Source: an uncultured Anaerovibrio sp. (GTDB lineage Bacteria > Bacillota > Negativicutes > Selenomonadales > Selenomonadaceae). Taken from it: a stretch of DNA of 42,194 nt. A model generated the notes under the pieces. The model ran no database searches and had not been told where the DNA came from. It saw only the letters and a list, made by a program, of their open reading frames with translations. The position numbers and the translations under genes were made by a program. Shown in pieces: positions 7,978 through 28,605 of this stretch. The stretch is from contig CAKPVW010000013.1 of assembly GCA_934196075.1 (NCBI GenBank), positions 1-42,194 on the forward strand. The letters run 5' to 3'. Each line of letters begins with the position of its first letter. Position 1 is the first letter of the stretch.

Positions 7978-9206
7978 GTCTCTAAATGCCTTTTATGCTT
8001 ATGCAGTACCATACATGCATAGAAAACAAAGGCACAGGCAGCAGCTATAGATGAACACAGATACAAGGCTCTAAAGCCATAAATAGGTACAATATTTCCC
8101 AGTACCGCCGGCCCAATGCCATTACCTGCATCCAAGGCTATATACAGAGTTGAGGTAGCCAGACTGTATCTATCCGGGGTAACATTCTGTACCGCAATTG
8201 CCTGCCCTGCGGGCGGCACTGTACCATAACCAATAGCCACCAAGGCTGCTCCCAATAACAGCATAGCATTGCTTTCTGCCTCTGCTACAGCCAAAAAACC
8301 AAAAATCATACAGAAAAGTACAGGCAGCATGACCACATTGTTTCCCCACCTATCCAAAGCCATACCAGAAAGAGGTCTTGATATCAGGCAGGTAATGGAA
8401 TAAACCACATAAAACAGACTGCCCCCCAGCAATAGCCCTATGGCCTCACTATAGGCGCCAATGTAGCTCATCACCCCAGAATATCCCACGGCACTTAGCA
8501 TAGCCACTACAGCAATCCCCAAGGCCTTCGGCTCAATAAAACTGCTGATGGACCACCCCTGATGAGCCAGCAGGCGGGACTTTAGCTTCTCATCCAGCTC
8601 CGGCACATGGAGTACCATAACCATCAGCATAAGCACCGCAGCAATTATATCGCTGACCACCATAGCATAAAGAGGATTTATCTGAGGCAGCACCACCCCT
8701 AAGAATGGTCCGATAGCCGCTCCCATAGTCATACTAAGGCTAAAATACCCCAGACCTTCTCCTCTACGGCTGACAGGTACAATGTCTACGCTGACAGCAC
8801 CAAAAACCGTAGCTACACAGCCATAGGCAATACCATGAATCAATCTTAGGGCAAACAGTCCACTTATACCAGCAACAATATGATAGCATAGGGTGCATAT
8901 ACCATAGGCTGCCGCTGATAGCAGCATCATTTTCCGTCGGCCCACCTGCTCCAGATATTTACCAGCAAAAATTCTAGCCACCAAAGCGCTAATAATAAAT
9001 ATACTAGAGGCAAAACCTGCCTGATTAACACTAGCCCCAAAATCCGCCATAGCCATTTTGGTAGTAAATATCATATAGAGATAAAAAACCACGAAAACAA
9101 AAAAATATGCCACTAAATGCATGATATAGTTTTTCGTCCACAAAGGATCCTTTTTCCCAGATGCAAAATCATTGCCACCAAATTCCCGATTATGTTTTTC
9201 CACCAT
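7971..9206 (-). CDS. Major facilitator superfamily transporter
   Basis: The protein has 411 residues with about 12 hydrophobic segments. The loop 2-3 signature region GKYLEQVGRRKMML, the motif C-like stretch MTMGAAIGPFLGVVLP and a large central cytoplasmic loop (about residues 200-225) identify an MFS drug/proton-antiporter-like (DHA1) carrier. The substrate is unknown, and efflux is more likely than uptake on general resemblance. The gene stands alone, with an upstream AT-rich promoter region (9207-9300). Its neighbours (aroF and the propionate cluster) do not suggest a substrate. Confidence 0.85.
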   Translation of the reverse strand: MVEKHNREFGGNDFASGKKDPLWTKNYIMHLVAYFFVFVVFYLYMIFTTKMAMADFGASVNQAGFASSIFIISALVARIFAGKYLEQVGRRKMMLLSAAAYGICTLCYHIVAGISGLFALRLIHGIAYGCVATVFGAVSVDIVPVSRRGEGLGYFSLSMTMGAAIGPFLGVVLPQINPLYAMVVSDIIAAVLMLMVMVLHVPELDEKLKSRLLAHQGWSISSFIEPKALGIAVVAMLSAVGYSGVMSYIGAYSEAIGLLLGGSLFYVVYSITCLISRPLSGMALDRWGNNVVMLPVLFCMIFGFLAVAEAESNAMLLLGAALVAIGYGTVPPAGQAIAVQNVTPDRYSLATSTLYIALDAGNGIGPAVLGNIVPIYGFRALYLCSSIAAACAFVFYACMVLHKHKRHLETT

Positions 9207-17560: not shown

Positions 17561-17908
17561 TTATTCAATAATTTTTTTCATTTTTTCTCGCTGAGCCATA
17601 ATACCTTCCCACACGCTTAAAGCATTGTCAGGTATTTTGCCCACTCGAAAATCCTCAACAATATCCACTACTTGATTATACACCAGTGTAATCCCCATAT
17701 TGGCACTAATCCCCTTCAAATCATGAGCAGCGCCAAAAGCTGCCTTCACATCACCAGCCTTGATAGCTTTCCCCAATTCCTCAAAGGATTCATCATTTAC
17801 ATATTTGGTAAAGCATTTTCCGTAAAAATCCTCATTGTTCAAAAACCTGCCCATGGCCTCATTAACCTTACAGCCATAATCGGTAAGTTTATCTATAAGA
17901 GCTGACAT
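17561..17908 (-). CDS. HPt-domain phosphotransfer protein
   Basis: The protein has 115 residues, a single histidine phosphotransfer four-helix bundle. The motif AHDLKGISANMG carries the phosphorylatable histidine. I chose the ATG at 17908, 8 nt after GGAGG; a GTG three codons earlier overlaps the spacer. HPt proteins relay phosphate between hybrid kinases and response regulators, and no kinase or regulator gene is in the window. It lies 47 nt downstream of the last Pel-operon gene on the same strand with no terminator seen between, so it may be co-transcribed and could tie Pel production to a phosphorelay. That role is inferred from position only. Confidence 0.85.
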   Translation of the reverse strand: MSALIDKLTDYGCKVNEAMGRFLNNEDFYGKCFTKYVNDESFEELGKAIKAGDVKAAFGAAHDLKGISANMGITLVYNQVVDIVEDFRVGKIPDNALSVWEGIMAQREKMKKIIE

Positions 17909-17955
17909 TACCCGCACCTCCAGAAATTTGCTTCATCTACATTTTAACAAGAATT

Positions 17956-18966
17956 TTACTGATTAGCAATATCCTCAAATACATAAAAAACATCAATTAC
18001 ATCCAGAAATGCTCCGTCAAAGCCAGCTGCCAATATCTGGTCCAGATAAGACTGCGGACTTCCCATCAACATCTTCTGCCAGTCCTTGCTCCAATATCTA
18101 ACTCTATAATTGCCTTCCCAATCACCGTTGGCTATCCACATCCAGTCAGGAGGATTTGTTCCCCACTGAGACTGCCAATAAGGCCGATAATCCTCTGCCT
18201 CCCCCACACTCATATAGGAAGCTACCAGACGCCGGCTGCCACCTGGCTTGTATTGCAGCCTAGCCACATCCTGAGGTGTCAGCATAGAGTCACCATAATA
18301 AGCATCTATAATGAGCAAATCATAATTGCTGGCTGCCAAACTAGCAATATAAGACTCCTTAGAGGAAAATGCCTCTGGATTTAACAGTACCAAATAGTTT
18401 TTGGCCTGAGACAGCTCTGTGCAGGCCCTGTCATTGTTATTATTAGGTGCTTCCTTAGGCAATCTATCCAAATCCCTACGGGCAGATACCCAGCCCAAAT
18501 AGCCATAATCTCTGTCCTCTCGGTAGGATTTCTGGGTTTCTGGCTTTTCTCGGCAGTAATCCAAAACCAAAGGCACTACCCCAGACTTTTTGGCCTCTGC
18601 CAATAAATCATGGAAAATTTCCTGATCCTCTACAGGAGTAGGATTATCCATAGCCATATCCCAGCCATAGTTTACAGACTCCACCATTACCCCATCCAAA
18701 TGGGATTTCAGCTTGTCACAATCCTCCTCAGAAAACATTTCATTGCTTTCCATCAGATCAGCCCCACCATTGGCTATAATGAAAAAATCTCCCGTGCCAT
18801 GTTCTTGTCCATATTCCTTAATATCACAAATAAGATTGCCCATTTCCTGACGATAAGCAATCTCCTCGTTACTACTGTTATTGGCGGCAGCAATATTGTG
18901 ATAGGTATATAGCCCTGCCAGAGAAGCAACAATTCCGGCAGCAGCCAGCAAAATTTTTATTTTCAT
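17956..18966 (-). CDS. GH114/GH166-like glycoside hydrolase (separate PelA hydrolase module)
   Basis: The protein has 336 residues. An N-terminal signal or anchor helix (about 4-22) places it in the periplasm. The rest is a TM1410/endo-alpha-1,4-polygalactosaminidase TIM barrel: DLLIIDAYYGD (D221), VASYMSVGEAEDYRPYW (E256, E258), DWEGNYRVRYW and GFDGAFLDVIDVF (D322). In Pseudomonas, PelA joins such a hydrolase to a deacetylase in one chain. Here the deacetylase is a separate gene four positions upstream, so PelA appears split. It would trim or release the galactosamine-rich polymer. Its start codon follows the outer-membrane gene's stop directly, indicating translational coupling. Confidence 0.82.
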   Translation of the reverse strand: MKIKILLAAAGIVASLAGLYTYHNIAAANNSSNEEIAYRQEMGNLICDIKEYGQEHGTGDFFIIANGGADLMESNEMFSEEDCDKLKSHLDGVMVESVNYGWDMAMDNPTPVEDQEIFHDLLAEAKKSGVVPLVLDYCREKPETQKSYREDRDYGYLGWVSARRDLDRLPKEAPNNNNDRACTELSQAKNYLVLLNPEAFSSKESYIASLAASNYDLLIIDAYYGDSMLTPQDVARLQYKPGGSRRLVASYMSVGEAEDYRPYWQSQWGTNPPDWMWIANGDWEGNYRVRYWSKDWQKMLMGSPQSYLDQILAAGFDGAFLDVIDVFYVFEDIANQ

Positions 18967-21009
18967 TTAAAAGCTCCTATTGTAATTCAGCATAACACCC
19001 CAGCTACGATAATTGGCATCTCCCTGCTGTCGCAATATTCCCCGCTCCATATCCAGAGATAAGCTGTTTTTATCATCCATACGCCAATCATAGCCAAGAG
19101 AAACAGAAAACCTCCGCCCAGAAGCACTGGTAAGCCTAGTCAATGGATCATAGCTCTCTCCATCTGCTCGCAGCCAATTAGCAAACAATCTCAGCTGTCT
19201 TTTACTATCAAATTGATGGAAATATCCTGCACCATAATACAGCCGATGCATACCTGAGCCAGGAGCCAAACCATTATCATAGGCTGTGCTCCGATCAAAG
19301 GTCCAGGCACCATAGGCACCCCAGGAATCCTTTGGGGTAAACCAGCTGCGGTAATACCCTCGCAGGCCAAGGCCATCCCCCTCGGTAAAGCTGTAATCAT
19401 TGGCTGTGCCGCTAATAGAGGATTTATCACTATTATTCGTATATTGGAATTTCAGCATATAATGAGTTTTCTTATCTGTATGCAAATATTCCAGCTCATT
19501 AGTCCATTGATTACCGGGATGCATATTCCCAGTTACACTATCATAGTCCTCCTCATAAGCTCCTCGAAAAGAATAGGAGCCGCGCCAGGTCATACTGGTA
19601 TATTTATCCAAATGGCGAACGACTTCCATGCGAGGGGTAAAATTCCAGCCCTCCCCCAGTCTGGAAACTCTAGCCAGATAATCAGGCACCACAGCATTGC
19701 CATTTGTACGGCTGCTGCCTGTAGGCAGATTAACCTCCAAGCCATAACGCACATCATAAACAGGATGCTTATTGGTATACATAGCGGTCAAAGAAGTATC
19801 CGTCAAACCTGACATCTCTCCTCCAGCCAGACCTGTATTGGACATAACATAGGCATTGCTTAAGGAAAAATCATAATGATTCTTGCTCCAATAAAAGGAA
19901 TTGCCACTGTAGAGCTGATGACCACTGCGTCCCTCCGGCCCTTGCCAGCTATAATATTCCAGGCTCTTTTGCGCCCCCATGCCCTCACCAAAATGCAAAA
20001 GGCCAAAGCGGGCCAAGTCCACATCCTTATGAGCCTCATCCAAATCTGCTACAGCCTGCTGTCTATTGGTGATAGCTTCATCTCTCTCCTGGGTGCAAAT
20101 ATTTACATCCTGAATGCAATCCAGCACATCCTGCTTATTCTGAGCCACCTCTATCTGCAGCTCTATAATGTTCTGTCGAGCATCAGCCTCTGCCTCCTCA
20201 GCCTCCAGCTGCTGCGCCTTCAACTCATCCAGATACTCACTAACCGAATCAAAATATTCTCTGGCTTCCTCTACCTCTCTGTCCAGCTCAGCCATTCTCT
20301 CCCAATAGGCATCCTGCTCAGCCTGAGCCTCAGCAGCATCGTAGCCATCTCCCTCACCGCTGAATCTGGCCTCAATCTCTGGCAGACGATTACTTTCATA
20401 GCCTACCTCCGCCCAGGCCTCCTGAATCCACTGCGCCCGCTGTTCATCACTGGCTGTCCAGCCACCACCAGCTCCTGCACTATAGGGCTGGTCTACAGTA
20501 GCTGCTTCCTGCACATCCACACATTGCTGCAGCTGAGCCTGAGCCTCATACCAGGTAGGGAGATAATCTGCCACAGCCTGCTGACTAGCAATAGCCTGCT
20601 GTGTCAGCTCTATACGGTTCGCCCTTGCCTCCGCTAGTTCCTTTTCTGTTTCTGCCAAAATCTCCTCTGCCTGCTGTTGATTGTCCTGAGCCTGCAAAAG
20701 ATTCTCCTCTGCATCCCGACAGGTCTGGATAGCTTCATCCAAATACTGCTGAGCCAAAGCTGCATTGTTGACAGCATCTACCACCCAGTCCTTGGCCGCA
20801 TCATAAGCATTAATGCTCTCCAAGCTATCCTGCATATAATCAAAATCATTATTAATATCCTGTAATACATTTAGAGCGGCATTAGACTGTTGGGGGACAC
20901 CTACCGCCAAGCTTCCCAAAACAGCAGCGGCAGCTTTTTGACGATTGTGACTAGCTTGCCTGCGTTGCTGCAGTAACAAACGGCGTTGCCGTATTCTGGA
21001 CATTCGCAT
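18967..21009 (-). CDS. Outer-membrane beta-barrel protein with long helical hairpin; candidate Pel export porin
   Basis: The protein has 680 residues. A signal peptide with a long Arg-rich start and a hydrophobic stretch (26-37) ends near SNAA (42-45). Two long, Gln/Glu/Ala-rich helical arms (about 55-170 and 225-335) are joined by a Gly-rich linker (about 177-224), a pattern expected for an antiparallel coiled-coil hairpin. Residues from about 345 to 680 alternate polar and aromatic residues as in a beta-barrel and end with a terminal Phe, the usual outer-membrane signature. Four cysteines (97, 163, 298, 305) lie in the helical part. There are no SLH, TPR or POTRA domains, so it is not PelB. 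It lies 18 nt after pelG, with AGGAGG before the ATG. Confidence 0.75.
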   Translation of the reverse strand: MRMSRIRQRRLLLQQRRQASHNRQKAAAAVLGSLAVGVPQQSNAALNVLQDINNDFDYMQDSLESINAYDAAKDWVVDAVNNAALAQQYLDEAIQTCRDAEENLLQAQDNQQQAEEILAETEKELAEARANRIELTQQAIASQQAVADYLPTWYEAQAQLQQCVDVQEAATVDQPYSAGAGGGWTASDEQRAQWIQEAWAEVGYESNRLPEIEARFSGEGDGYDAAEAQAEQDAYWERMAELDREVEEAREYFDSVSEYLDELKAQQLEAEEAEADARQNIIELQIEVAQNKQDVLDCIQDVNICTQERDEAITNRQQAVADLDEAHKDVDLARFGLLHFGEGMGAQKSLEYYSWQGPEGRSGHQLYSGNSFYWSKNHYDFSLSNAYVMSNTGLAGGEMSGLTDTSLTAMYTNKHPVYDVRYGLEVNLPTGSSRTNGNAVVPDYLARVSRLGEGWNFTPRMEVVRHLDKYTSMTWRGSYSFRGAYEEDYDSVTGNMHPGNQWTNELEYLHTDKKTHYMLKFQYTNNSDKSSISGTANDYSFTEGDGLGLRGYYRSWFTPKDSWGAYGAWTFDRSTAYDNGLAPGSGMHRLYYGAGYFHQFDSKRQLRLFANWLRADGESYDPLTRLTSASGRRFSVSLGYDWRMDDKNSLSLDMERGILRQQGDANYRSWGVMLNYNRSF

Positions 21010-21027: not shown

Positions 21028-22476
21028 TTAGTTTAATTTATCCCCATACAGATAAGCCGCCAATTTGGTAAAAATACCATTAGTGTGTTCAAAGAACACC
21101 GGCCTGCTGCAAAATACAAAATAATTAATTCTCTGACAAAAATATTGTAACCGCCAAATAGCCACAGCACAAGCCAACACAGCTGCCAGGAAGAAAGTAA
21201 AGCCATAGCTTATCTCTCCTACCAGCTGTCCTACTATACCAAATACCAGATTTGCCAGCAGGAAGCTGCCTGTTATAATCAAAGCACCATGCTGATCCTC
21301 CAGATAAAGAAGCAGGGTATATACCACCTGCAGGATGCCACAGAAAAATGCCCCTAAAACCAAAAGGCGATAGATATTTACATCCTGATAAGCCACTCCT
21401 CCCAAGGTCAGAAAATAACTGCCCAAGGCTAGGAATATCAAAGAAAATACCAGCTGGAACTCCATGATATTCTTAAACTCTGTCCACAGGGTATAAAGCA
21501 AATCCTTCCGGGAATCATCCACCTCTTTAAGATTACCTTTTTGCGTAATATAGGTAAAATATATGGCATATTGCTCATAAAATTTTAGCTCCATGGAAAC
21601 CACAAACATAATCATAATGGGCAGGATGGACAAAAAGGCATAAAAAGTAATTACATCATACCTTGGAGAATAAAGGTACGTACCTGCCACCATAACTCCC
21701 CAGGAGCTGTTCCAAACAATAAAATTTGCCACATAGATAGACAAGGTATAAAAAATTATCAGCAAAAACAGTTTGTAATGCTGCTCGAAATATGGCAAAA
21801 ACTCAAAATTCATGGCTTGGGATGGATACCCAAAATATCTAACAATCTGCACCATAAAGCACAAATCCAGAATCCCCACTCCTATACACATGGAAAGCAT
21901 GGTGCCCTCCACAGGAGTCATAAAACCATATTGCAGATTCAGCCAGGTAAGAACAATGCTTATGGCCGCTCCCGCAAAATAACTGGCAAATATGGATTTA
22001 TAATCCTTGAGAGCTGTTAAATATACCATTTGCAGCCACATGGCTATCATTTCCGCAAAAAAGGTATAGGTTATCAGCTTCAGATGCAAGGGCAGAGGCT
22101 TATCCCAATAAAACAGCATGGCAGCCACTGCCCCTGCCAGCTGAGCCATAAAAATTATTCCATAACAGGAACCGGAGACATTCTCATATTCCCCTTCATA
22201 CAAACAATCTGCCAAGTATCTAGTTATAATAATAGAAAAACCACAGGAAATCAACTGGGAAAATACAAATGGATAAATCACTGAGGAAACATATAGCTGG
22301 CTGTTATTTACATCAATGCCATAGCGAAGAAATAAAAGCTGAATAGCCAGAACCATAGTGGTTAGCAAGGCAAAAGGGCCTGCTGTAATCACCGCAGAAT
22401 AGCCATAGGCCATGGCATGACCGGTCAAAGTACGGCGATTAAAAAGTTTTTTCAATTCAAAGCCAATCCCTGCCAT
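21028..22476 (-). CDS. pelG: PelG: inner-membrane Pel polysaccharide transporter
   Basis: The protein has 482 residues with about 12 transmembrane segments and belongs to the MOP/MATE-like flippase superfamily. The start MAGIGFELKKLF and the following AYGYSAVITAGPF segment are hallmarks of PelG. It should form the inner-membrane synthase/export complex with PelD, PelE and the glycosyltransferase PelF, moving the growing Pel polymer across the membrane. The start codon overlaps the pelF stop (TAATG), so the two are translationally coupled. The next gene downstream encodes the outer-membrane protein. Confidence 0.95.
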   Translation of the reverse strand: MAGIGFELKKLFNRRTLTGHAMAYGYSAVITAGPFALLTTMVLAIQLLFLRYGIDVNNSQLYVSSVIYPFVFSQLISCGFSIIITRYLADCLYEGEYENVSGSCYGIIFMAQLAGAVAAMLFYWDKPLPLHLKLITYTFFAEMIAMWLQMVYLTALKDYKSIFASYFAGAAISIVLTWLNLQYGFMTPVEGTMLSMCIGVGILDLCFMVQIVRYFGYPSQAMNFEFLPYFEQHYKLFLLIIFYTLSIYVANFIVWNSSWGVMVAGTYLYSPRYDVITFYAFLSILPIMIMFVVSMELKFYEQYAIYFTYITQKGNLKEVDDSRKDLLYTLWTEFKNIMEFQLVFSLIFLALGSYFLTLGGVAYQDVNIYRLLVLGAFFCGILQVVYTLLLYLEDQHGALIITGSFLLANLVFGIVGQLVGEISYGFTFFLAAVLACAVAIWRLQYFCQRINYFVFCSRPVFFEHTNGIFTKLAAYLYGDKLN

Positions 22477-23903
22477 TAGCCCTCAGCTCCTTCCAATTGT
22501 TGATATATTTCTCGGTAAGAATTAATAAAATTTTCGTAGGTATAACCATTTTTTACTCTCTGCCAGCCTATCTGCCCCATCTTATGCCGTAAATCGAAGT
22601 TTTTAGCCAGGCGGATAATCTCCTTGGCCATCTGCTCATAATCCATGGGAGCCACCACTGTTCCTGCTGGGCCTAAATCATCATTAGATGCACCATATAT
22701 CAATTCCCGGCAGCAGCCTACATCCGTAGTAACAAAGGGACGTCTGGCGGCCTGTCCCTCCAGCACTGCCAAGGGCTGTCCCTCACTGATACTGGATAAT
22801 AATACAATATCCAGCTGAGGGAATACCTCTGCCACATTTACAGAGCCAGTAAACTCAACATTTTTCAGCTTTAGAGTTTCCACAGTCTGCAGGCACATTT
22901 TATAATAATCCGGATCCTCGGCATAAGGCCCTATTACCTTAAGGCAGGCATCTGGAAAAACCTGCTGTACCAAAAGAAAGGCTCGCAGCATGGTAACAAT
23001 ATCCTTAATAGGCACCACCCGCACTACCCCTCCAATAACCAAAGGACCATCATGGTCTGTAAGCTCTGGTATATGGGCGAATCTTTCCATACGAATACCA
23101 TTAGGTACGATGCGGATTTTATCAGGATGACAGCCCAGCTCCTGCTCAATAATAGCATTGCGCTCAAATAGAGTTACCACCATATTAGCAGTTGTATAGG
23201 CCAGCTTAGCAATATTATAAAAATACTGTATCCAGACAGATTTAAAATCCCCCTTGGCCCAGCCACATTTGACAATTTCTGTTTCTCTTTCCCGGGAATA
23301 AATACCATGCTCCGTAATCAAGAAGGGCTTGTGATACATTTTGGCCGCAATACTGCCAATAATACCACAGTATCCCGTTGCCACGGTATGATACAAATCA
23401 GCCTGTGGTAAGGGATGATGGAAGAAATAAAACAAAGGCAAAAGCATGGATCTCATGGTCCAGAAAAAATCTGTAAAGGGCAGATAGCTGTATTTATCCG
23501 CATAAACCTGACTGATAATATCAAAAAAATCACTGCTCATAAAAATGGTCAAAGGATTTTTCTTATGCTTTGCCTGAGAAAACATATTGACAATGGTTTC
23601 TATATCAATAGGCTTTTCTCCCACCACCAAATCATATAAGCACTGTCTTTCCTGAGCATTGAGAATATTCTCCTGCAGCTTAGGTGAATGACAGCTCAAA
23701 ATCTCATCCAGAAAAACCTCCTGAATGCCTACCACATTGGCAGGGAATTTGTATTTAAACTTACCTCTATCACGAGAATCTGCCCCAATGGCATAAATAA
23801 AAAATTCATATTCAGGCAATCCCTCCATCAGCATCTGAAGCCAGGAGGAAACACCTCCTACTACATAGGGATAGGCCCCCTCTACCAGCATGCATATTCT
23901 CAT
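22476..23903 (-). CDS. pelF: PelF: GT4-family Pel polysaccharide glycosyltransferase
   Basis: The protein has 475 residues. The N-terminal half is the DUF3492-type acceptor domain starting MRICMLVEGAYPYVVGGVSSW, with a conserved TEHGIYSRERE segment. The C-terminal half is a GT-B donor domain with the EX7E motif (SEGQPLAVLEGQAA) and TTDVGCCREL. PelF is a soluble cytoplasmic enzyme that polymerises UDP-activated N-acetylgalactosamine/glucosamine or galactose into Pel. Gene order and TAATG overlaps with both neighbours place it in the operon core. The assignment is strong because PelF is distinct among GT4 enzymes. Confidence 0.95.
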   Translation of the reverse strand: MRICMLVEGAYPYVVGGVSSWLQMLMEGLPEYEFFIYAIGADSRDRGKFKYKFPANVVGIQEVFLDEILSCHSPKLQENILNAQERQCLYDLVVGEKPIDIETIVNMFSQAKHKKNPLTIFMSSDFFDIISQVYADKYSYLPFTDFFWTMRSMLLPLFYFFHHPLPQADLYHTVATGYCGIIGSIAAKMYHKPFLITEHGIYSRERETEIVKCGWAKGDFKSVWIQYFYNIAKLAYTTANMVVTLFERNAIIEQELGCHPDKIRIVPNGIRMERFAHIPELTDHDGPLVIGGVVRVVPIKDIVTMLRAFLLVQQVFPDACLKVIGPYAEDPDYYKMCLQTVETLKLKNVEFTGSVNVAEVFPQLDIVLLSSISEGQPLAVLEGQAARRPFVTTDVGCCRELIYGASNDDLGPAGTVVAPMDYEQMAKEIIRLAKNFDLRHKMGQIGWQRVKNGYTYENFINSYREIYQQLEGAEG

Positions 23904-25720
23904 TATTCTTCACCTACCCATTTGATTTCAAAATCTCCATCCGTCACAGTCAGCACATAGGCATTTGCCTGAATCCTTTGAGCACTGCCTCCGGTTACAG
24001 AGCCTATCTCCTTATCGGTACGCAAAATAAAGGTTAATGGCTTCTGGAAGTTAGAAGCATTAATCTTGATGCCCTCCTTACTCCTTGTTAAGCTGTAATC
24101 CATCTGAACATAATCCTGCAGCTTTTCATAGGCCTCAGTAGCAGTAACCGGCTCCAGCCAGCCAAATCTATTCTGCAGCTCTGACAAAAGATCCGTCATG
24201 CCTTGCTTCATAATAGCCCAGGTCAAATTCTCACTTTCCTCATAGAAAATTTCATCAGGATGTACAAAATGAGAAAATACACCATTATAATTTAAAACAT
24301 TATAAGCCTCCCAGATTTCTTCAGGGCTAGGGGCATAACCAGAGGAAGCGCGAGGTATCTCGCTGGTGCCATCACTGTTTAGCTGGAAATTCTGGAAATA
24401 CTCACTGGCTGTAGCCAATCCTTCCCACAAGGAAGAATATACTTTTATATCTGTAAAGACATTTTTAACGGCTGCCTTGCCCTCTGGGCTAAGAATATTA
24501 GATGGGGGTACATAGGCATGAATTTCATAGCCTGGATATACATCCTCAATATAGCGCTTTAGCTCTCTAAGGGATTCCTCCATATCAGCCTGACTTTCCC
24601 AGGTGGCATAGCCCAGCTTCTCCTGTCCATAGCCAGCGGGAGCCAAGGACTGATGGTTATAACCATGAATGCCCAGCTCACCGCCAGCCTTCAACAGCTC
24701 TCTGCCGTAGGCAATCAGACTATTGCGGGCCGCTCCATTGGCCAAAGGCTTAAATGGTCCCTTTACCTGATCCCCATAGGATTCAATAATCAAGCCTGTA
24801 TACTTAACATTATACTTTTCTCCGTTATCCAGCATCTCAGGCCACCAAAGGCGACGATAAAAATCAGAGGTATTATAGCCTGTTTCCTGATATATTCTGT
24901 CAAAATTTCCTTCTGGTACAGGAGATGGAAAATCATCTATGTAAAACAGCTTTATATTTATAACCGGATAAATATAGTCCTCGTTCAGCTGACTAAGTAT
25001 GGCTGTATATGTACCATAGTTATTCTTGTCGTCTCGCTCCCGGCTATTGCAGACAATATATTTTCCCTCACCGCTATTATGACTCCAGATAATAGGATGT
25101 CCATCCTGAGATGTAACCTCTGGCACTGCATCTCCTGTCAGCTGTACATCTGTCACCCCAGTCATATAGCTAGCAGAATCAAAGCCATAGCCCTGCAACC
25201 CCAGGAACATATCTCCCGGCACACGAATACCAGGCACAGAAATTTCCTGCCCAATGGAAGCTATGCCTAATTTAGCTGTCATGTCCTCTGGCAGCAAATC
25301 TCCCTGCAGATTACGCAAAATAGCCGCCCGGCCTCCCTGCTCAACATACCCTGCCACAGCAGACATACCTGCTATGCTTTTCAGCCTGTTGCTAGCAATA
25401 ATTACACCCTGACATTTGCTGTCAATCACCACGGGCTGATAAAAAGGTATGGTCTGAACAGTTTTTTTCTGGTCACGAATAATTTTCTCTACAATATGCC
25501 TGCTTAGCACACTTTGCACATCTGTTGGATCATAAATCAGCAAATAATTATCCTTGGCAGCCTTTTGATTCCCCATAGACTGCCAGATATTTCCTGCCCG
25601 AATATTGTTCTGCCAGGAATTGAGATACAAAAAAACATCCATTCTATTAATCTGGAAAAACACCCCCAGCAGGGCGGTAATAATAAATACGCTCCAAATT
25701 TCTTTCTTAAAATTATCCAT
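23903..25720 (-). CDS. pelA: PelA-type deacetylase (DUF2194)
   Basis: The protein has 605 residues. A single N-terminal membrane helix (about 8-25) anchors a periplasmic protein. Residues 95-225 look like a Rossmann/flavodoxin-like domain. Residues 255-500 form a CE4-like deacetylase: FYIDDFPSP (D262, D263), GIHGYNHQS (H352, H356) and FSHFVHPDEI (H484, H487). A C-terminal beta-rich domain (about 535-605) follows. It matches the DUF2194/PelA deacetylase half of Pel systems, which partly removes acetyl groups from the polymer. It lacks the hydrolase half, which is encoded at 17956-18966. Its start overlaps the pelE end by 8 nt. Confidence 0.87.
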   Translation of the reverse strand: MDNFKKEIWSVFIITALLGVFFQINRMDVFLYLNSWQNNIRAGNIWQSMGNQKAAKDNYLLIYDPTDVQSVLSRHIVEKIIRDQKKTVQTIPFYQPVVIDSKCQGVIIASNRLKSIAGMSAVAGYVEQGGRAAILRNLQGDLLPEDMTAKLGIASIGQEISVPGIRVPGDMFLGLQGYGFDSASYMTGVTDVQLTGDAVPEVTSQDGHPIIWSHNSGEGKYIVCNSRERDDKNNYGTYTAILSQLNEDYIYPVINIKLFYIDDFPSPVPEGNFDRIYQETGYNTSDFYRRLWWPEMLDNGEKYNVKYTGLIIESYGDQVKGPFKPLANGAARNSLIAYGRELLKAGGELGIHGYNHQSLAPAGYGQEKLGYATWESQADMEESLRELKRYIEDVYPGYEIHAYVPPSNILSPEGKAAVKNVFTDIKVYSSLWEGLATASEYFQNFQLNSDGTSEIPRASSGYAPSPEEIWEAYNVLNYNGVFSHFVHPDEIFYEESENLTWAIMKQGMTDLLSELQNRFGWLEPVTATEAYEKLQDYVQMDYSLTRSKEGIKINASNFQKPLTFILRTDKEIGSVTGGSAQRIQANAYVLTVTDGDFEIKWVGEE

Positions 25721-26603
25721 GGGAAATACCTCCCCAATAACGCACCAGCTCTAAGGCCTGCAATGATAATTCTCCCGGAATATCCTTTAATTCATTGAGC
25801 TTTTCCGCCATTTTAGCCGGCTGCCGCATATTGAAATATAATTTTATGTATTCCAAATAAGGCTCCTCCCGGTCTGGATAAGCCTGCTGAAATTTTTCAC
25901 AGGCCTCCTGAGCCTGGGTATAATTTTCCAATATAATTTCCTTGCGAATTTTTTCCTGCAAAAACTCCACTTCATCAGGATATGCCTGCAAAAGACTATC
26001 CAACAGAGTTACATACTGCTCGGTACGATTCTTTTTGGTAATATTATCCACAAATTCCTGCTCCAGATAATCCTTTAGTAGATAGGCATATTCTCTCTGC
26101 AGCTCCATATTATCCTTATCCTGAAGCAGCTCCCCTTCCACCTTGCTGATTTTGTTCTCCAGCTCCTCAATATGACCAGAAATCATGGACACAGCATAAT
26201 AAGCAATCTCCCGATCCTGATCGTAGGTGGCCATTTTCAGCACTCTTGGATTTTCCAGTACATTCTGCTTAACCGCATCCAAAAAAACCTTGCGCTTAGC
26301 ACTGACATCATCTACCAAATATGTATCATGCAAAGGAATAACATTTTCGTCATAGCTAATCATATTGGTAAATACATTATTTTGGTTCATTAGCTTATGG
26401 GGATCTATATTACACTGAAAGGGCTTTATTTCCTTGATAATTCTCGCTCCCACTACCAGCACAAAGCCTGCCACCGGCATGAAGAATACTATCAAAGCCT
26501 CCGTAGCTCCCTGAATAGCATCCCCTTGTCTACGAGCGTACAAATAGGCAGCCAATACCATAACCAGATGACACCCTGCCATTGGCCAAAGCCATCCATC
26601 CAT
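25713..26603 (-). CDS. pelE: PelE-like inner-membrane TPR protein
   Basis: The protein has 296 residues. Two N-terminal membrane helices (about 6-23 and 35-54) are followed by a charged helical cytoplasmic part, with TPR-like helix pairs from about 190 (YPDEVEFLQEKIRKEIILENYTQAQEACEKF...YPDREEPYLEYIKLYF is the clearest region, residues 210-254). This matches PelE, an inner-membrane scaffold that binds PelD. The sequence alone is a weak identifier, and the call rests on architecture plus its place between pelD and the pelA deacetylase. It starts 1 nt after the pelD stop. Confidence 0.78.
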   Translation of the reverse strand: MDGWLWPMAGCHLVMVLAAYLYARRQGDAIQGATEALIVFFMPVAGFVLVVGARIIKEIKPFQCNIDPHKLMNQNNVFTNMISYDENVIPLHDTYLVDDVSAKRKVFLDAVKQNVLENPRVLKMATYDQDREIAYYAVSMISGHIEELENKISKVEGELLQDKDNMELQREYAYLLKDYLEQEFVDNITKKNRTEQYVTLLDSLLQAYPDEVEFLQEKIRKEIILENYTQAQEACEKFQQAYPDREEPYLEYIKLYFNMRQPAKMAEKLNELKDIPGELSLQALELVRYWGGISHG

Positions 26604-26604
26604 A

Positions 26605-28605
26605 TTAAACCAGCTCCCTAATATCCTTGATTTCTATACCACGATGCTGTAACCGCTGTTTAACCAGCTGCAAGCCATATTCGTCTGTATCATGCAGCAG
26701 CAGATATACATTGCCATCCATAATACCCACTGTATCCTCCTGACGAATAGAGCCACTAAGACGATTATCCAGCTCCTGATAATTAACATTTTCTGTTCCC
26801 AGCTCCAGCAGTACATTATGCACATCATGCTGCAGCTGTGCTCTTTCCTTAATGCCAGCCAGATGTATGGCAAATTCTTCCTCCTGCATAATTCTGGTAT
26901 CTGCCACAAATCTCTTGCTCTGAATACCATTCTCATAGACATAGGCCTTGCCCATAGCCATGGAAATCAAGCGCGCCGTTACAGACAACAGATTCTGCTG
27001 ATAAATACTCCACTGGTCAAAATCCATACCATAAATCTCAATAATGGCAATAACCTGCCCATTATAAATAATAGGTGCGGCCAAATCAGGCAAATTCAGC
27101 TGCAAGCCGTGATTGACGAAAAGATGGTGATTCTCCAGCATATTTCTGATATAGGCATTGTCCTCAGTCTTACGAGAATGAGGCAATTGTCTGGTTTTAT
27201 CTCCCAAGCGCACCTTTTGGCGGAGATAGTATTGATCCTTACCCATAACATATATAGCAATATTATTGGCTCCCATAATCTTGCTGGTAATAACTGCAGC
27301 CTGGGTAAAAATATTCTCCACCTGTACCGTATCTAACTGCTGAATAATACCATAAAGCCACCCAATGCTATCATCTGAGTTAACAATTTGATAATAAAGC
27401 TTATCCTTGATAGCAACAGATTTCTCGTAGTTCTTCTGCAAAAATCCATAACGCTGCCACATATGGTTCAGCTTATATCCTATGGATTCCAACCTGCCCT
27501 GCCAGCTATCTGCCACATACCCTGTAAAAACACCTAGAAACAGATAAGTGGAATAATGAAACAGGTTATCTGGTATATAAAATATACTCGCTAATTCGCC
27601 ATGTCGATTCAAAAGGCCCCAGGTCAGCAATATCATACAGGGTAAAATTGCTGGCATAGACTGTTTTTTGCCATACATAATCCCCATTACAATAATATAG
27701 ATATAGCATATATCCAAACCAGTAGCCTGATTTACCGGGGAGCCCCCCTGCAATATACTAATCAGCAGAACCACCAGAAAAAGGCCTATATTCTCTAAAT
27801 AAGGCCTAATTTTCGTAAAATATTTCGTTTGCCAATTAGCTTTTTCATGTTCAAGAGCTGTCCCTTGTTTGGCGTAATCTTTAAAAACAGGCTCCAGCAT
27901 CTCAAGAACAGGATATTTGGCTTTAAGCACCAAATGATAAACCTGCTCATCCCCCTTCCAGAGATCCGCCCCAGAGAACTCCTCTCCTCTGCCAGCTATC
28001 TCTATCTGAGGCAGGGAAGCAAAGCTATTAACAGCCAATACCAGCTGGGTAAAGCTAAACTCCTCCTGAGACTCTATAACAATACACTTCCTATTTATTT
28101 CCTTCTGCAAAATAGAAAACAAAGCATAGGCCGCATCCTTGCCATAAAGTATGGAAACAGGCACTGTATCAGAGCCAGCCAAAGAAAAATTCTTATTTTC
28201 TTTGATGGATGCCCACAATTTGGCTATGGTTCCTTCCTCAGATTTCTGCCCCTGACCAAATACCTCTGGCATATGAACTACGCTAACATTTTGTTGATGA
28301 GCCTCTCCCCAGGCCAACACAAAATCCTCATAACATTTCTGAGCAGACAATCCTCTGGTAATATAAAGAAATTGCTTTACCTCATGCTTTTTAGACTCAG
28401 CCAAAACTTGAGAAAGAGAGGCGTCAATTTCTCCATCAGAAAAATATACCACGAACTGAGGATTGTAGAGATTGAAGCTCTCCTCCTGAAAAATAGAGGT
28501 TTCCCAACCTTCCTTGCTCATGGTACTCTGCAAAAATTCGGCCAAAAATCCCAACTTGCCAGCCAAAAGGACATTTTTCCTAAGCTGTTTTATGTTTTTA
28601 CCCAT
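26605..28605 (-). CDS. pelD: PelD-like c-di-GMP receptor with SDR-like N-terminus, GAF and degenerate GGDEF
   Basis: The protein has 666 residues. Residues 1-230 resemble a degenerate SDR/epimerase (VVHMPEVFGQGQ near 109-120). Four membrane helices follow (about 272-287, 298-312, 318-333, 349-365), then a GAF-like domain (about 405-555) and a C-terminal GGDEF remnant. The inhibitory-site motif RQED (R621, D624) is kept, but the active-site GGDEF is replaced by MDGNV (629-633). It should therefore bind cyclic di-GMP and not make it, as PelD does in activating Pel synthesis. It is the first gene of the operon. The ribosome-binding site is a modest GGAT, and the upstream 246 nt contain an AT-rich promoter region and an inverted repeat. 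Confidence 0.85.
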   Translation of the reverse strand: MGKNIKQLRKNVLLAGKLGFLAEFLQSTMSKEGWETSIFQEESFNLYNPQFVVYFSDGEIDASLSQVLAESKKHEVKQFLYITRGLSAQKCYEDFVLAWGEAHQQNVSVVHMPEVFGQGQKSEEGTIAKLWASIKENKNFSLAGSDTVPVSILYGKDAAYALFSILQKEINRKCIVIESQEEFSFTQLVLAVNSFASLPQIEIAGRGEEFSGADLWKGDEQVYHLVLKAKYPVLEMLEPVFKDYAKQGTALEHEKANWQTKYFTKIRPYLENIGLFLVVLLISILQGGSPVNQATGLDICYIYIIVMGIMYGKKQSMPAILPCMILLTWGLLNRHGELASIFYIPDNLFHYSTYLFLGVFTGYVADSWQGRLESIGYKLNHMWQRYGFLQKNYEKSVAIKDKLYYQIVNSDDSIGWLYGIIQQLDTVQVENIFTQAAVITSKIMGANNIAIYVMGKDQYYLRQKVRLGDKTRQLPHSRKTEDNAYIRNMLENHHLFVNHGLQLNLPDLAAPIIYNGQVIAIIEIYGMDFDQWSIYQQNLLSVTARLISMAMGKAYVYENGIQSKRFVADTRIMQEEEFAIHLAGIKERAQLQHDVHNVLLELGTENVNYQELDNRLSGSIRQEDTVGIMDGNVYLLLHDTDEYGLQLVKQRLQHRGIEIKDIRELV

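Follow-up and report, generated by a model that had tools for sequence, protein, structure and literature searches.

The window analysed here, i.e., the whole 42,194-nucleotide stretch from an uncultured Anaerovibrio sp. (contig CAKPVW010000013.1 of assembly GCA_934196075.1), carries on its minus strand an operon for the exopolysaccharide Pel, in which the gene next after pelG encodes a protein with two long predicted helices and a predicted C-terminal beta-barrel, hereafter the arm-and-barrel protein. Its open reading frame (18967-21009, minus strand, 680 amino acids) is preceded by AAAGGAGG and starts 18 bp past the pelG stop, and its own stop abuts the ATG of a GH114 gene (junction TAAATG), so that the placement given in an earlier note on this DNA, i.e., directly after pelG and within the same operon, stands. 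The operon reads PelD-like protein, PelE-like protein, DUF2194 deacetylase, PelF, PelG, arm-and-barrel protein and GH114 protein, with a tight pelDE(A-DA)FG part. Gram-positive pel operons are of the pelDEA-DA-FG type (PMC7112168), and the operon in the window is of this type, with a membrane protein added.

The other members of the operon, all on the minus strand, are mostly recognisable by their domains: PelG, the inner-membrane Pel transporter (21028-22476; PF16933, 412.6 bits, E 2.8e-123), PelF, a GT4 glycosyltransferase (22476-23903; NF038011, 377 bits against a cut-off of 100), and a PelA-DA-like deacetylase (23903-25720; DUF2194, PF09960, E 7.6e-123; DUF2334, PF10096, E 2.5e-11), homologues of which are found in other pel loci, DUF2194 being annotated at a fusobacterial one. 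The PelE-like protein (25713-26603) was assigned by position, which its homologues keep in other pel loci, and has weak matches to tetratricopeptide repeats (TPR) below cut-off (TPR_19, E 0.02); the PelD-like protein (26605-28605), with homologues at pel loci as well, combines an epimerase-like N-terminus (PF01370, just below cut-off) with a GAF domain (PF01590, over cut-off). The GH114 protein (17956-18966) resembles the PelA hydrolase (PF03537, E 4.5e-11; TIGR01370, E 1.2e-35, below the cut-off of that model), and the gene next after it (17561-17917, minus strand) encodes a protein that has an HPt domain (PF01627, narrowly over cut-off) and may take part in regulating the operon. A 96% identical relative of the arm-and-barrel protein comes from a locus of Anaerovibrio lipolyticus (genome G001), and PelF and PelG also occur in Selenomonas sputigena (PMC13339959).

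The AlphaFold2 model of the arm-and-barrel protein, computed from an alignment of 38 rows, in which 37 of the 45 homologues found accompany the window protein, has a mean predicted local distance difference test score (pLDDT) of 81.5 and a predicted template modelling score (pTM) of 0.62. A signal peptide, judged by eye, covers about residues 1-45 and is followed by two predicted helices (48-172 and 225-338), a barrel region with about 16 predicted strands by our count (within 343-679) and a terminal Phe680. The barrel-like region ending in Phe had thus been read correctly in the earlier note, and structure prediction of the monomer does give a barrel; the two arms, put there at roughly 110 residues each, are slightly longer (125 and 114 residues), and the Gly-rich linker between them is present, with the added detail that its ~50 residues include short helices and are predicted at low confidence (pLDDT below 50 at 174-186 and 201-229). 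As the model was read at the level of secondary structure, a true hairpin of paired helices and a closed barrel are presumed. The arms are strongly acidic and, if straight, would measure about 19 and 17 nm. A crude estimate of the barrel interior, with inward residues guessed from strand alternation, gives 12 Lys/Arg and 12 Asp/Glu. The 45 homologues share 27-97% identity with the window protein, and conservation over so many sequences shows that the protein is not a product of chance.

The 680 residues match nothing in Pfam or NCBIfam above a model's cut-off, and we rejected the sub-threshold matches to XhlA (11.5 bits), SMC_prok_A (8.3 bits) and NHLM_micro_HlyD (9.1 bits); a tblastn search of plasmids with the window protein gave no match. 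The family range is a lower bound, as the protein searches scored only the 7992-7995 candidates sharing most words and the scan of genome contigs used two short patterns (yielding 12 loci). The N-terminus of the protein (window 20950-21009) begins with a conserved basic motif, MRMSRxRxR, that recurs two to four times ahead of the signal peptide in some relatives (P0041-P0043, L085 and L089).

The gene and pelG are tightly linked. We surveyed 380 genomes of unstated completeness belonging to the class of the Anaerovibrio slackiae genome G002 (locus L005), taken to be Negativicutes, and found PelG over its curated cut-off in 59 and the arm-and-barrel family in 67, i.e., in 58 of the 59 genomes with PelG and in nine of the 321 without it. 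The figure of 67 was reached from a raw tally of 73 by dropping six genomes with only weak coiled-coil matches (G015, G062, G064, G066, G171 and G354; E 1.9e-5 to 6.8e-4); a family profile of the GT2 type, whose matches in 89 of the 380 genomes include many weak coiled-coil hits, was not counted. In 55 of the 59 PelG genomes the family gene lies downstream of pelG on the same strand, with -7 to 680 bp between the matches, so that it is by no means found mostly away from pel loci. As for the exceptions, the contig of G257 ends right after pelG, the family gene of G229 lies 5.6 kb further on in the same cluster (past DUF2194 copies and GH114), and G284 has a pel cluster and, at the edge of another contig, the family gene. 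The fourth, G224 (contig C5; L095, L137), has a lone pelG, with the barrel gene on a different contig and no match to the other pel proteins of the window within the 14 kb fetched around pelG.

At one locus (L076, genome G076) the two genes are one: the pelG frame runs without a stop into the next gene and encodes 1101 amino acids, in which PelG (PF16933 at 1-457) is followed by a signal-peptide-like stretch, LRRSVAAALAVFVAGYASPLWAGA, and then by the arms and the barrel. This fusion corresponds in the protein database to P0074 (16 member sequences), and a second fusion, P0075 (1098 amino acids), is 61% identical to it overall, with 63% identity in the PelG part, 33% in the arms and 86% in the barrel. 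An assembly error was considered and dropped, as the existence of two diverged copies makes it unlikely. By eye, the junction in G076 holds a TTG behind a possible Shine-Dalgarno sequence, so that separate initiation of the barrel part is possible. If the two helices pair, the start of helix 1 would lie near the outer membrane and the fused chain would have to be cut at its internal signal peptide, which is presumably cleaved. These natural fusions make a functional link between the arm-and-barrel protein and PelG more likely. Another type of composite protein was seen in P0076, P0077 and P0078 (1032-1093 amino acids), where PelG (PF16933) occurs together with a CotH kinase domain (PF08757).

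The family extends beyond Pel. Seven relatives in six genomes adjoin other polymer synthases: L078 and L079 lie beside GT2, BcsB, a DUF2334 deacetylase and a GGDEF protein (by Pfam for L078, by the matching gene row for L079); L080, L081 and L083 beside GT2 and a polysaccharide deacetylase, which passes its cut-off in L080 but not in L083 (L081 judged by its gene row), together with a protein that is weakly bactofilin-like, below cut-off; and L077 and L082 beside GT2 with PilZ, plus MBOAT, with AlgX-like and GH5 proteins in addition at L077. We therefore dropped the notion of a Pel-specific protein. A profile-profile comparison of two family groups gave a probability of 100% (E 1.1e-85) across 600 columns, the arms among them; the second group has eleven rows, four of which are pel-linked (L086-L088) or lack a recognised synthase (L084). 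A Methylomusa member, P0047, which is identical to L078 but has a later start and hence lacks the N-terminus, is predicted by AlphaFold2 (mean pLDDT 82.8, pTM 0.56) to form helices at 2-91, 119-140 and 159-246 along with about 16 strands, i.e., one relative beside another synthase has, as modelled, the same architecture as the window protein. No synthase was recognised near a fragment in G082 or near L084, L089, L094 and L085, the last of which lies beside a UDP-sugar dehydrogenase. A tree was built from 50 barrel domains (leaving out L052 with a barrel insert, the truncated L065, L075, which is the same gene as L094, and members with unfetched loci), and in it the seven relatives beside other synthases fall among pel-linked members. 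Five label changes are required in all, three of which stem from four members without a recognised synthase; with those four removed the pel label needs two changes, the starred branches force two, and 1% of the bootstrap trees need one. It is certain that the family switched once between pel and other synthases; a second switch is only favoured.

Known exporters of such polymers were sought by their barrel domains. The PelB barrel (PF24604) was over cut-off in none of the 66 Negativicutes genomes searched, of which 59 carry PelG, with two matches below it (18.8 and 16.6 bits), and a thin PelC profile built from two sequences gave four weak matches (16.9-21.8 bits) in the 59 PelG genomes, the controls of 348 and 323 bits being the profile's own sequences. 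These searches cover relatives of the window genome, the nearest being G001 (locus L001), and among them no PelB barrel passed its cut-off and no convincing PelC emerged. Both proteobacterial control records match PF24604 (220 and 195 bits) and two fusobacterial ones do not; the control PelB proteins match PF24604 at 8e-64 and 3.6e-56 and the TPR model PF13429 at 1.5e-79 and 1.3e-53, and a Pfam scan of the window protein found neither PF24604 nor TPR at E up to 1. Comparison of the PelB barrel with that of the family by hhalign gave a probability of 1% (two-sequence PelB profile), i.e., no detectable profile similarity, though a deep common descent is conceivable, and the PelBC structure 9h80, although present in Foldseek, was not among the best 50 rows of structural matches. 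The barrels of BcsC (BCSC_C, PF05420) and PgaA (PgaA_barrel, PF21197) were likewise unmatched in the window protein and over cut-off in none of 13 Negativicutes genomes, the E. coli controls matching in both cases. The AlgE domain (Alginate_exp, PF13372), also unmatched in the window protein, was just over cut-off once in the 13 genomes (G072, contig C191) and below it twice (G073), none of these matches being at the loci studied. A sub-threshold PgaA_barrel match (19.5 bits; G104, contig C9, 118742-119374) lies in a 779-amino-acid frame that shares a contig with pelG, ~20 kb away from it, and possibly marks a TPR-type exporter in a Negativicute. The Pfam scan found no SLH, OEP or POTRA domain in the window protein and, in the eight proteins of the operon that were scanned, no polysaccharide-export (OPX) domain.

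In its setting the arm-and-barrel protein resembles PelB: the operon neighbours are the same (PelD, PelE, PelF, PelG, deacetylase and GH114), and a long periplasmic helical part precedes a predicted C-terminal barrel of ~16 strands. PelB itself has a barrel of 16 strands and a scaffold more than 20 nm long (PMC12141448). Unlike PelB, it lacks TPRs and a PF24604 match, no convincing PelC was found in the PelG genomes, and its lumen is, by the crude estimate above, not clearly anionic. Outer-membrane routes comprise Wza-type OPX channels, synthase-pathway barrels of 16 to 18 strands and composite OPX/barrel pairs (PMC9601211). The family would work like the synthase-pathway barrels, yet it fails the TPR and domain tests of their known members, as it has two long helices in place of the TPR superhelix or separate TPR lipoprotein of BcsC, PgaA and AlgK-AlgE, and the window protein matches the Pfam barrel domains of none of the three. 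The TPR domain of PgaA scaffolds export of poly-N-acetylglucosamine in E. coli (PMC9384988); the arms would be a non-TPR substitute for such a scaffold. Composite pairs of the EpsY/EpsX type resemble the family in that their barrel depends on a periplasmic part for bridging the envelope (PMC9601211), but in the family this part is helical and belongs to the same chain, and the family is linked to synthase pathways rather than to Wzx/Wzy. From the Omp85/TpsB proteins it differs by long helices instead of POTRA domains, though the BamA and CdiB barrels lead one list of structural matches. Fusobacterial pel loci (L097:11001-14019 and L098:11001-15239) show yet another arrangement: PelG (703 and 772 amino acids) has a Gly/Tyr-rich tail and, by eye, a lipobox-like site (LFLSGC / LLLGGC); after it comes an unrelated, barrel-like protein (305-316 amino acids; that of L098 just passes Pfam OMP_b-brl), with a GH114-like protein (by eye) next in L098. 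Homology of the family to this small barrel was rejected (hidden Markov model E 0.07 and 0.35; hhalign 0.6%), and the fusobacterial arrangement is possibly a separate Pel route in another diderm phylum.

Three other roles were weighed. The protein could be a tether or surface anchor like OmpM, its acidic helices binding cationic, polyamine-bearing peptidoglycan or Pel and keeping the matrix attached to the cell while Pel leaves through another pore. OmpM, a barrel with a periplasmic N-terminal part from the same bacterial class, tethers the outer membrane of Negativicutes by binding polyamine-modified peptidoglycan (PMC5491611), and the high acidity of the arms would suit such a function; but the window protein has no SLH domain, the family sits at polymer loci, unlike a general tether, and its linkage to differing polymer synthases and its fusion to PelG better fit a conduit. 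As for another pore, PelB was over cut-off in none of 66 genomes and BcsC and PgaA in none of 13, with an AlgE-type match just passing in one of the 13 (G072). We consider a tether unlikely. Even less probable is a duct like TolC, in which the helices of several protomers form a periplasmic alpha-helical tunnel with the polymer inside: two very long helices followed by strands do recall TolC, and their length fits the periplasm, but TolC contributes four strands per protomer, as against about 16 in one chain here, and no outer-membrane efflux family (OEP) matches the window protein. An ordinary porin or small-molecule uptake channel travelling by chance with exopolysaccharide operons, for which structural matches such as FadL, CymA, VhChiP and PorB would speak, is the least credible of the three given the position beside pelG and several other synthase systems, the PelG fusions and the long periplasmic arms, which to our knowledge are not a porin feature.

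We therefore consider it probable that the arm-and-barrel protein is the outer-membrane translocon of synthase-dependent polysaccharide secretion, with two long helices replacing the TPR scaffold. The different outer-membrane conduit for Pel proposed in the earlier note is supported, except that the family also serves loci other than pel by its position. In the most economical mechanism, Pel is made and flipped by PelF and PelG under regulation by PelD and PelE, and the DUF2194 enzyme deacetylates it. The signal peptide would direct the arm-and-barrel protein to the periplasm, and the barrel would sit in the outer membrane and pass the polymer. The acidic helices would pair, span the periplasm and make contact with the inner-membrane complex of PelG, PelD and PelE, in the place held by the TPR scaffold in PelB, BcsC and PgaA. 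They may hold Pel, which is cationic once partly deacetylated, or steer it, together with its modifying enzymes, and the barrel would release it. We infer the passage of polymer through the barrel, the pairing of the helices and their reach to, and contact with, PelG.

We also lean, with less assurance, towards a wider claim, i.e., that the two-helix-plus-barrel translocon serves at least four arrangements of polymer synthases in Negativicutes as their exit module and, in certain lineages, forms one polypeptide with PelG. The tree slightly weakens both this claim and the main reading, as it supports less exchange between polymer systems than the five label changes suggest: an approximately unbiased test does not reject a tree in which the seven members beside other synthases form a single clade (p 0.093).

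In the sources consulted, Pel export is described with PelB and PelC in Gram-negatives and without both in Gram-positives. Among the papers listed in literature searches, judged by title and start of abstract and with subscription papers and preprints outside their scope, none deals with the arm-and-barrel protein or with the export of such polymers by Firmicutes of the Gram-negative type. If our reading is true, a single undescribed family that takes the place of the exporter in Pel, BcsB-type and other GT2 systems would fill that gap and would suggest that export scaffolds can do without TPRs. The PelG fusion would then mean that inner and outer channel are made one to one, and these natural inner-to-outer-membrane fusions would offer material for studying how polymers cross the periplasm.
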